NCBI RefSeq assembly: GCF_014652875.1
Contig: NZ_BMZQ01000001.1
Span: 1,054,001-1,118,000 of the forward strand
Reading direction: 5' to 3'
DNA: 64,000 bases
Source of the DNA: Tianweitania populi
GTDB lineage: Bacteria > Pseudomonadota > Alphaproteobacteria > Rhizobiales > Rhizobiaceae
Shown: positions 21,982 through 42,712 of the stretch, in pieces
How the letters are laid out: each line of letters begins with the position of its first letter
Position numbering within the stretch: the stretch's first letter is position 1
The notes under the pieces: model-generated
Told to the model about the DNA's origin: nothing
Databases searched by the model: none
Seen by the model: the letters and a program-made list of their open reading frames with translations, nothing else
Made by a program: the position numbers and the translations under genes

Positions 21982-22211
21982 GACGGTTTTCTCCCGTTCG
22001 CGTTCGTCCCGGACACTTGTCCCGAACGTAGTCATCACCGATGTCGAAGGGAAATTCGTCAGGAGCGCCGAAGCGCCAACAAAGTTCGTCAAGCAAGATC
22101 GATTTGAGCTTTATAGCCGGACATTGCAGCGGGAACAAGGCGCGTCTCGAAAAACATTTTCAAGAATATGCCGAAAGGTTCGACGTGCTGTTCAAGGAAC
22201 TAAAAAGCAAA

Positions 22212-22233
22212 AAGGTCGGCATGTGCCGACCTT
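22212..22233 (-). terminator. orphan terminator resembling the cspA terminator
   Basis: AAGGTCGGCA-TG-TGCCGACCTT is a near-perfect palindrome; on the minus strand it is followed by TTTGCTTTTT. No gene ends just before it on the minus strand, and the sequence between here and 22445 has no supported protein gene. About 80 bp around it resemble the cspA 3' UTR and terminator. The stretch 21982-22445 otherwise holds only the cspA upstream region and the leader of the dehydrogenase gene. Confidence 0.75.
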
Positions 22234-22445
22234 CTCTTTGTGCCTCTACACTGGTGCCGGTACATCCGCGGTCACCGGTGGAAGTCACAATCGGAATATA
22301 GGTCACCTTTCACGACAATCCAGTGACAATGTTCATTAATTAAATGCCCAAGCCAGAAGTGGGCGGCTGTCGAGATCTGGAGGAACAACTCGTCGCGTTA
22401 AGGAATTAGGAGGGTTCTACCCCCGCAGCAAAGGATTCAGACGCG

Positions 22446-40366: not shown

Positions 40367-40582
40367 CGCTGCCTGTTCTTAAGTGTTCAGGGCTTACTCA
40401 CGAGAGAAAGCCACCCGCGCAAACGCGGCATCTAAATCCATTAATGTTGCGTTGCACAAAGCGCATCGCTGCCATGCAACATCGTCTGTTTCAATCCCGA
40501 GGGCCTACGCATATCTTCCGCCTTGTCCGAAGCCAAGACGCCGACAGACAGCAAGAAAAAAAGACACCTAGGGTACGAAACA

Positions 40583-40723
40583 ATGAACATCATCCGTAAC
40601 TACCGCAACTGGCGCCGCTACCGTGACACGGTTTCCGAGCTGAGCCGCCTTTCCAACCGCGAACTCTCCGACCTCGGCATTGCCCGCGGCGACATCCCGT
40701 TCGTGGCACGCAAGACGGTCTAA
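40583..40723 (+). CDS. DUF1127 small protein preceding the CCUCCUCCC RNA array
   Basis: A 46-residue, arginine-rich protein, MNIIRNYRNWRRYRDTVSEL at the N-terminus then SNRELSDLGIARGDIP, the DUF1127 signature. AGGG lies about 11 bases before the ATG. In Rhodobacter sphaeroides a DUF1127 protein (CcaF1) encoded just upstream of the CcsR sRNAs binds RNA and affects their maturation; the same gene order is seen here, with the first sRNA hairpin 17 bases after the stop. Co-transcription is inferred. A dyad GTTGCA...TGCAAC (40451-40480) lies upstream. No clear RpoH or EcfG box was found. Confidence 0.9.
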   Translation: MNIIRNYRNWRRYRDTVSELSRLSNRELSDLGIARGDIPFVARKTV

Positions 40724-40740
40724 TTGGCCGCATGAGATTT

Positions 40741-40902
40741 CGCTGAGCCTACCTCCTCCCAGGCTTCAGCGAATACGACCGGAACCTACCTCCTCCCAGG
40801 AACCGGTCACCCAAACGACACCTGCCCAACCTCCTCCCTGGGCAGGTGTCGCATTTGGGACCAGGAATTCAGCCGCCTCGAGCGGCACGCGGTGAGAACC
40901 GC
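40741..40902 (+). ncRNA. anti-Shine-Dalgarno sRNA unit 1 (cuckoo/CcsR or alpha-r14-like)
   Basis: Three motif-bearing hairpins follow one another. Hairpin A (40741-40771) has stem CGCTGA..TCAGCG plus CCT/AGG. Hairpin B (40777-40808) has GACCGG..CCGGTC plus CCT/AGG. Hairpin C (40816-40851) has a perfect 13-bp stem CGACACCTGCCCA/TGGGCAGGTGTCG. Each loop is ACCTCCTCCC (motifs at 40751, 40788 and 40829). Two small hairpins without the motif follow (40872-40886 and 40889-40902). The motif is complementary to GGAGG and thus to ribosome-binding sites. No U-run follows hairpin C, so mature RNAs would arise by processing. Confidence 0.85.
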
Positions 40903-40913
40903 AAACGAAATTT

Positions 40914-41076
40914 CGCTGAGCCTACCTCCTCCCAGGTCTCAGCGGATACGACCGGAACCTACCTCCTCCCAGGAACCGGTCACCCAAACGACACCTGCCC
41001 AACCTCCTCCCTGGGCAGGTGTCGCATCTGGGACCATGAATTAAGCCGCTTCCAGCGGCATGCGGTGAGAACCGCA
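40914..41076 (+). ncRNA. anti-Shine-Dalgarno sRNA unit 2
   Basis: A near-identical copy of unit 1, offset by 173 bp: hairpin A 40914-40944, B 40950-40981, C 40989-41024, all with ACCTCCTCCC loops (motifs at 40924, 40961 and 41002). The spacer hairpins at 41045-41059 (GCCGC/GCGGC) and 41061-41076 (TGCGGT/ACCGCA) are kept. Differences are compensated: hairpin A reads AGGTCTCAGCG on its 3' side where unit 1 has AGGCTTCAGCG, and the small hairpin loop changes from ctcga to ttcca while the stem is unchanged. This pattern supports selection on structure. Confidence 0.85.
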
Positions 41077-41085
41077 ACGATATTT

Positions 41086-41203
41086 CGCTGAGCCTACCTC
41101 CTCCCAGGTCTCAGCGGATACGACCGGAACCTACCTCCTCCCAGGAACCGGTCACCCATACGACGCCCGCCGGATCTCCTCCCCCGGCGGGCGTTGTCGT
41201 ATG
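41086..41203 (+). ncRNA. anti-Shine-Dalgarno sRNA unit 3, with a divergent last hairpin
   Basis: Hairpins A (41086-41116) and B (41122-41153) repeat units 1-2 (motifs at 41096 and 41133). Hairpin C (41157-41203) has a different stem, CATACGAC plus GCCCGCCGG with CCGGCGGGC, a GTT bulge and GTCGTATG, and the loop ATCTCCTCCC (41174). The stem sequence has changed but pairing and loop are kept. Another ATCTCCTCCC lies at 41227-41236. No U-run is seen before trmFO at 41285. Confidence 0.8.
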
Positions 41204-41284
41204 CGGAGGATCCTCATCGCATCTTGATCTCCTCCCGGCCCGCATTCGATTGCGCGGCACACGGCAAGAGCGTATTTGGACCCC

Positions 41285-42712
41285 ATGACATCAAATCCCA
41301 TTCAAATCATCGGCGGCGGTCTCGCCGGCTCCGAAGCAGCCTGGCAGATCGCCTCCGCCGGCATTCCCGTTGTGCTGCACGAAATGCGGCCCGTCCGCGG
41401 TACCGAAGCGCACAAGACGGACGGCTTAGCCGAACTCGTTTGTTCGAATTCCTTCCGCTCCGACGACGCGCAAGCCAATGCCGTCGGTCTGCTGCATGCC
41501 GAGATGCGGCTCGCCGGCTCGCTGATCATGGCCTGCGCCGACGCCAACCAGGTTCCCGCTGGCGGTGCGCTGGCAGTCGATCGCGACGGCTTCTCGCAGG
41601 CAGTCACGGCCAAGCTCGAAGCCCATCCGCTGATCACGATCGAACGCGAGGAAGTCGCCGGCCTGCCGCCTGAAGCCTGGGATCAGGTCATCATTGCCAC
41701 CGGCCCGCTGACCGCACCAAGCCTAGCCGGCGCCATCCAGGCTCAAACCGGCGCAGCTGCGCTGGCCTTCTTCGACGCCATCGCGCCCATTGTCCATTTC
41801 GACACGATCGACATGAACAAGGCCTGGTTCCAATCGCGCTATGATAAGGTCGGACCGGGCGGCACGGGCAAGGATTACATCAATTGCCCAATGGACAAGG
41901 ATCAGTACTACGCCTTCGTCCAGGCTCTGATCGATGGCGGCAAAACCGAGTTCAAGGAATGGGAAGGCACACCCTATTTCGATGGCTGTCTGCCGATCGA
42001 GGTGATGGCGGAGCGCGGCGTCGAGACGCTGCGTCATGGGCCGATGAAACCAATGGGCCTCACCAATGCCCATGATCCCCAAACCAAGGCCTACGCCGTC
42101 GTTCAGCTTCGGCAGGACAATGCGCTTGGCACGCTCTACAACATGGTCGGCTTCCAGACGAAGCTGAAGCATGCCGAGCAGGTCCGCATTTTCCGCATGA
42201 TTCCGGGTTTGGAAAATGCAGACTTTGCGCGCCTTGGCGGTCTGCACCGCAATACCTACCTGAACTCGCCGACCTTGCTCGATCATTCCCTTCAGCTGGC
42301 GTCGCGCCCAGGCCTGCGTTTCGCCGGCCAGATCACCGGCTGCGAAGGCTATGTGGAGAGTTCAGCGATCGGACTGCTGGCCGGCCGCTTCGCAGCAGCC
42401 GAACGGAACGGCACCCCAGTTTCGGTGCCGCCTTACACGACGGCCTTTGGTGCGCTGCTCGGCCACATCACCGGCGGCCACATCGTGTCAGACGATGAGC
42501 CCGGCAAACGCTCGTTCCAGCCGATGAACGTCAATTTCGGCTTGTTCCCACCGGTAGAAGCGCCGAAGACGGCCAGCAAGCGTTTGCGTGGCAAGGACAA
42601 GATCGTCGCCAAGCGCCATGCGATCACGTCGCGTGCCATCGCAGATTGCCGGGAATGGCTGGGCCTTCCGGCACTACCGGTTGTGGAAGAGGTTGCCGAA
42701 GCGGCTGAGTAG
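41285..42712 (+). CDS. trmFO: folate- and FAD-dependent tRNA (uracil-54) methyltransferase
   Basis: A 475-residue flavoprotein that methylates U54 in tRNA (ribothymidine) using methylenetetrahydrofolate. The FAD-binding motif [16 protein letters not shown] is at about 8-23, followed by LHEMRP and [20 protein letters not shown], and the later [23 protein letters not shown] 41285 is preferred; a TTG three codons upstream is an alternative. It lies 48 bases after the last CCTCCC motif with no terminator between, so read-through from the array is possible. It converges with the next gene, 6 bases apart. Confidence 0.96.

Follow-up and report, generated by a model that had tools for sequence, protein, structure and literature searches.

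A DUF1127 gene and a tandem array of ar14 small RNAs upstream of trmFO in Tianweitania populi, preceded by an LsrB/VtlR-type box

A DUF1127 gene and three ar14 units

In Tianweitania populi, a gene for a DUF1127 protein of 46 aa (40583-40723, forward strand; PF06568, E 2.7e-16) is directly followed by an array of small RNAs and then by trmFO, a conserved neighbour (41285-42712, forward strand; NF003739, 675 bits). All positions without a contig name refer to the window, which is the whole stretch of 64,000 nucleotides that was analysed. The first RNA unit starts on the same strand 10 bases past the stop of the DUF1127 gene. Three units, at 40734-40854, 40907-41027 and 41079-41199, all match the Rfam family ar14 (RF02344, curated cut-off 58.8 bits) over its full length (model 1-123 of 123), with 79.0, 79.8 and 88.0 bits, respectively. 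They belong to direct repeats of 171 nt that begin at 40734, 40907 and 41079. The ar14 match itself takes up 121 nt, and the spacers of 51-52 nt that separate units 1 and 2 (40855-40906, forward strand) and units 2 and 3 (41028-41078, forward strand) may be processing regions. Cuckoo-type RNAs directly 3' of a DUF1127 gene on the same strand are what has been named a CIN1 locus (PMC10253847), and the locus is genuine, conserved and of a known kind, a tiny protein gene with small regulatory RNAs. Elsewhere in the window there is a match to the Rfam sRNA ar35 (22205-22324, minus strand; 50.1 bits, cut-off 45).

The motif CCTCCTCCC occurs in 8 exact copies in the 64 kb window, every one of them inside the array (mean of 0.51 and maximum of 4 copies in 100 shuffles), and when TCTCCTCCC variants are counted, ten CTCCTCCC motifs lie within about 490 bp. 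Nine of the ten are loops closed by arms that are complementary over 11-14 nt, in some cases with a mismatch. Each unit has three hairpins, in every loop of which the aSD motif is unpaired, and the predicted fold of every unit beats 200 of 200 shuffles (z -6.75, -6.58 and -6.53 for units 1 to 3). The tenth (41229-41236, forward strand) was tried as an additional hairpin and rejected, as stem inspection gave only a weak stem outside any three-hairpin unit; it is poorly paired and possibly a remnant. A sequence-only reading of this DNA had already described the 46-residue DUF1127 gene and a threefold array with motif loops, and both are borne out by the Pfam match, the direct repeats and the ar14 matches. 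Its units of 172-173 bp agree with the repeat spacing of 173 and 172, with the spacer included, and its count of three stems per unit and ten motifs stands for the nine motifs in strong stems. The Rfam search that it had proposed for its assignment to the ar14 and cuckoo RNAs returned the three full-length matches above cut-off. What had to be given up is the view of the three-hairpin tandem unit as unusual, since ar14/NfeR1 has been described as three hairpins, each with CCUCCUCCC (PMC10746234, PMC7143759), and cuckoo RNAs have 2-4 hairpins (PMC4504443).

Conservation and copy number among relatives

The same reading had named a failure of covariance models, together with stems that are not conserved in related genomes, as a finding that would speak against it, and 65 three-motif units, taken from the trmFO loci with an array, the window and two relatives, bear on this point. 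In an alignment of 46 of the 65 units, 18 of 22 consensus pairs have changed on both sides (hairpin 1 is absent from this consensus). In 62 of the 65 units (L048 and both L107 units were dropped), the own arms of distinct stems pair in 85, 99 and 100% for hairpins 1, 2 and 3, and arms swapped between stems in 44, 45 and 62%, in a register picked to favour the own arms, by which this test is somewhat biased. The ar14 structure in these loci is under selection.

Of 297 genomes in the family, 291 have an ar14 match at E 0.001 or better, and 277 have one above the cut-off. The genome of T. populi itself has a fourth, solo ar14 (C2:158895-159017, minus strand; 60.1 bits) with two motif hairpins and a T-run, which adjoins a galE-like gene (likeness by eye). 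The two other genomes of the genus carry the locus, one with 2 units (G133) and one with at least 4 (G036), in which the contig ends inside the array (L125, 1700-1795) and another ar14 match starts at base 5 of contig 2. The number of units thus varies within the genus. In the window, units 1 and 2 share 96% identity, whereas unit 3 shares 83-84% with either of them, and in Mesorhizobium the first units of two loci (L036, L042) are 94.5% alike, versus 77-79% between first and second units within one locus. Units therefore appear to have been duplicated inside the genus of the window, and as units 1 and 2 are as close to the G036 units (93-96%) as to each other, this duplication may be older than the split from G036. 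A further DUF1127 match in the own genome (C2:82818-82916, minus strand; L142) contains one in-frame TAG.

Of 80 named trmFO loci, in which up to 2600 nt upstream of trmFO were inspected, 27 have a DUF1127 gene and then an array within 150 nt (operon type; 26 by pattern and L079 by eye, with L072 qualifying only via a two-motif cluster). Another 19 show the order array, DUF1127, trmFO (Rhizobium type), in 21 there is a DUF1127 gene but no array, and the remaining 13 lack both, among them L039, which offers only 133 nt upstream of trmFO and cannot be judged. These counts include DUF1127 genes with M in place of L, which the initial pattern missed. The operon type is found in Mesorhizobium, Aminobacter, Phyllobacterium, Brucella, Aurantimonas, Oricola, Roseibium and Pleomorphomonas, among others, and the other order in loci named Rhizobium, Shinella, Sinorhizobium, Ensifer and kin, where the sRNAs are at the same place, uncoupled from DUF1127. 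In Sinorhizobium glycinis (L057), for example, trmFO is preceded by a row of two ar14 units and then two DUF1127 genes. The first of these is 63% identical to that of the window. At a greater distance, both the window and L057 have a trigger factor-like gene (by eye) and a tRNA, which is on different strands in the two. Judging from the groups that show it, the operon order may be the older one. A tree of the DUF1127 proteins (48 columns only, 41 of 94 inner branches open) splits the trmFO-adjacent type of Rhizobium, together with the second DUF1127 of Mesorhizobium and Aminobacter, from the rest. Two Aurantimonas loci (L074, L095) have 11 and 8 motifs, spaced mostly in twos and not in threes, and in Methylobacterium and Microvirga (L084, L089, L096, L097, L101, L103-L105, L109) DUF1127 stands before trmFO with no array.

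The promoter, the transcript and an LsrB-like regulator

Upstream of the DUF1127 gene, at 40453-40475 on the forward strand, two published definitions of the LsrB/VtlR box overlap, which is expected by chance 0.01 times per window. One of them, TGCA-N6-GCAT (40453-40466), is the LsrB motif of the nfeR1 promoter, where it is located at -72 to -57 (PMC10746234), and the other one, GCAT-N3-TG-N3-T (40463-40475), has been given for LsrB/VtlR (PMC7486931, PMC8844928). Downstream of the box lie a poor -35 region, GTTTCA (40488-40493, forward strand), tentatively placed by alignment with relatives, and a putative -10, CATATCT (40510-40516, forward strand). In 25 of 30 operon-type loci, the TAT of this element keeps a constant spacing to the box (other offsets reach at most 7). 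Transcription would then start near 40523, and the box would be at about -70 to -57, in agreement with nfeR1.

Unsupervised motif discovery in the 230 nt upstream of the first DUF1127 gene, in 28 operon-type loci (including the window and its genus), returned CAcaA..tGCATtGCTGcCATGCA, which coincides with the published LsrB/VtlR motifs and, less exactly, with the VtlR motif CAATGCAGCCATGCA of Brucella (PMC12595884). A matrix built from 25 loci outside the genus has its top match in the 64 kb window at 40454, with 19.9 versus 5.3 for the next. On the 80 loci, it gave 32 matches of at least 14 in 1.76 million positions, 27 of them at most 300 nt before a DUF1127 gene (initial pattern), of which the 26 in operon-type loci are largely circular, as the matrix was trained on such loci. 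Of the remaining five, three are found before DUF1127 genes that the initial pattern did not cover (L057, L052, L079) and two before an ar14 array (L081, L083).

Taken by themselves, the published definitions overlap in 16 of the 27 named operon-type loci (19 of 30 with the window and its genus), with 11 of the 27 failing an exact match to both, and also at 11 of 19 first DUF1127 genes of the Rhizobium type. Both definitions were found at 1 of 13 second DUF1127 genes of the operon type, at 0 of 18 second DUF1127 genes of the Rhizobium type, at 0 of 21 loci without an array and in 0 of 48 upstream regions of trmFO, and 200 letter shuffles gave a mean of 0.0 overlaps in every locus class. Each single definition is present in 19 of the 27 operon-type loci, and in 2 and 3 of the 21 loci without an array; at the trmFO-adjacent DUF1127 genes of the Rhizobium type, neither is present in 18 of 18 cases. 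In Rhizobium-type loci (L051-L086), the trmFO-adjacent DUF1127 gene has a different conserved promoter element, GCATaGCAGatGCaTtTT.TTTGC (20 loci). In Oricola (L088), the box stands before both of two tandem DUF1127 genes. The solo ar14 of the own genome (L126) has no LsrB-type box by pattern or matrix. Besides, the combined box has three further matches in the own genome (L144-L146), with matrix scores of -3.0, 6.0 and 6.9 and 1 match in the reversed-pattern control; these were set aside as mostly chance. The promoter thus points to LsrB/VtlR as the likely switch of the DUF1127-ar14 operon. Such a promoter of this operon looks new, as a limited literature search found no published LsrB control of it, although this argues only weakly that there is none.

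In the own genome, trxB (TIGR01292, 391 bits) has a LysR gene directly after it, and the nearest solved relative of this LysR protein is 9hh1 ("LysR family", E 1.4e-140), presumably LsrB of Agrobacterium. Among the 25 of 56 NCBIfam matches that were listed for the protein, there is no model named LsrB and none over cut-off. The position is that described for vtlR, directly after trxB (PMC7486931). Downstream of trxB and the LysR gene there is an ar15 (AbcR) sRNA, preceded by GCAT-N3-TG-N3-T; the trained matrix scores this AbcR promoter site with only 2.8.

As regards the transcript, a T-run of at least 4 follows 0 of 16 internal versus 14 of 25 last units in operon-type arrays (three-motif units; one of the "last" units, in L125, is really internal), and 12 of 24 units of the Rhizobium type. 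A cruder measure, which mixed in units without three motifs and is superseded, gave 1 of 35 internal, 14 of 29 last and 11 of 28 Rhizobium-type units. The T content of the last unit exceeds the internal mean in 9 of 12 multi-unit loci. As T-runs are lacking after internal units and present after many last ones, and as the box stands only at the first gene of nine tandem DUF1127 pairs (Mesorhizobium, Aminobacter, Pseudaminobacter; the second genes score below -9), the array suggests one precursor that must be cut. This fits with the earlier claim of several sRNAs and a protein gene on one transcript, as does a scan of 40380-41400 that detected no promoter-like site, inside the array included, although its E. 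coli type consensus carries little weight here. In the window, a clear T-run is absent also after the third and last unit, and read-through into trmFO is possible.

Proposed regulation and comparison with known systems

The reading that is considered probable is that of a CIN1-type operon, activated by LsrB/VtlR, with one precursor cut into three ar14 sRNAs that block Shine-Dalgarno regions. The putative LsrB/VtlR protein encoded beside trxB would bind the box and activate the promoter, and a single precursor would comprise the DUF1127 reading frame and the three sRNAs. It must be cut, as units 1 and 2 have no promoters or terminators of their own, most likely by RNase E with the help of the DUF1127 protein, like in the case of Rhodobacter, where CcaF1 is reported to help RNase E in cutting the precursor (PMC10253847). 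The mature sRNAs of about 120 nt would present nine CCUCCUCCC loops, and these may pair with the Shine-Dalgarno regions of many mRNAs and lower their translation, as does NfeR1, which silences mRNAs, many of them for transport (PMC10746234, PMC7143759). Candidate targets would be mRNAs with GGGAGGAGG-like sites. The DUF1127 protein need not bind RNA here, as DUF1127 proteins of Agrobacterium can bind PhoR and act through it (PMC12501420), and the 2025 paper reporting this calls the RNA- versus protein-binding roles of these proteins an intriguing puzzle.

Alternatively, the operon might be driven by an RpoH-type heat-shock sigma factor, the LsrB-like box being secondary or that of another LysR protein. 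The ccaF1-ccsR operon of Rhodobacter has an RpoHI/RpoHII promoter (PMC10253847), and the aligned core of the operon-type loci, with CTT at the -35 place in 16 of 30 and a fixed TAT, is spaced like the sigma-70 and the RpoH1 consensus alike (CTTGAA-N16-CCTATAT in Sinorhizobium; PMC8844928). However, CTT is absent from the window, which has GTTTCA and not CTTGAA, and conservation of the box far exceeds that of the -35, so that RpoH as the main switch is rather unlikely. It is still less likely that every ar14 unit is a gene with its own promoter and terminator and the DUF1127 gene a mere neighbour, as would follow the example of NfeR1, a separate transcript of 123 nt (PMC10746234). The two units of S. 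glycinis both have T-runs, of 4 and 6, but none of at least 4 follows any of the 16 internal units of operon-type arrays, no promoter-like site was detected at 40380-41400 of the window with the E. coli type consensus, and the spacers of 51-52 nt leave little room.

Least probable appears a third alternative, in which the array does not chiefly supply trans-acting sRNAs but works in cis, as a leader or 3' tail, on DUF1127 or trmFO. The neighbourhood is conserved and no terminator-like site was detected before trmFO (the scan was limited to loops of at most 8 nt and is blind to stems with 10-nt loops). On the other hand, the array ends about 780-1800 nt before trmFO in several relatives, many last units are followed by T-runs, and ar14 RNAs are known as trans-acting sRNAs (PMC10746234). 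If the preferred reading, operon activation by LsrB/VtlR with a processed precursor, is right, the box predicts that one redox-responsive regulator switches the AbcR, NfeR1 and CIN1 sRNAs together, and the extent of Shine-Dalgarno blocking may depend on the copy number of the array.

Among the known systems, ccaF1-ccsR1-4 of Rhodobacter sphaeroides likewise consists of a short DUF1127 gene and tandem sRNAs of the cuckoo kind, and this published gene order agrees with the DUF1127 linkage that the sequence-only reading had named for Rhodobacter. It differs in having four CcsR copies after ccaF1, an RpoHI/RpoHII promoter and an end terminator, whereas the window has an LsrB-type box and three units, each with three hairpins, and CcaF1 has 71 residues versus 46 here (PMC10253847). 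In Brucella, VtlR activates three DUF1127 genes, which are likewise under a VtlR/LsrB-type box; the targets have been published as protein genes, and in the portion of that paper considered here an ar14 array is unmentioned (PMC12595884). Two loci named Brucella (L047, L048) have DUF1127, array and trmFO in this order. If the CIN1 operon beside trmFO is an ancestral LsrB/VtlR-activated unit, which the odds do not quite favour, DUF1127 genes among VtlR targets would in part be markers of an overlooked sRNA transcript, and effects ascribed to DUF1127 proteins would have to be separated from those of the sRNAs.

The AbcR (ar15) sRNA beside lsrB/vtlR has GCAT-N3-TG-N3-T upstream, as in the own genome, but is of a different RNA family, and the descriptions consulted mention no DUF1127 gene with it (PMC7486931, PMC8844928). 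The closest RNA relative is NfeR1 of Sinorhizobium meliloti, which belongs to the same Rfam family, has three aSD hairpins and TGCA-N6-GCAT at a like distance (PMC10746234, PMC7143759), and is activated by LsrB (PMC10746234). It is transcribed separately, from a sigma-70 promoter of its own (PMC10746234, PMC7143759), whereas the units of the window follow DUF1127 and have no individual promoters. To these systems, the present locus adds an LsrB-type promoter and an array designed like a precursor, and NfeR1 can be viewed as residing at the same place. As DUF1127 and the sRNAs are in an operon in some genera and apart in others, the role of the protein can be tested by comparison: as a maturation factor, it would be expected to affect the co-transcribed arrays but to be irrelevant to the free-standing NfeR1. 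It is conceivable, with the odds not quite in its favour, that the CIN1 operon beside trmFO is, outside Rhizobiaceae proper, an LsrB/VtlR-activated unit making a DUF1127 protein and ar14 sRNAs together, that this is the ancestral state, and that NfeR1 of Sinorhizobium is the same sRNA, escaped from it and having gained its own promoter and terminator.
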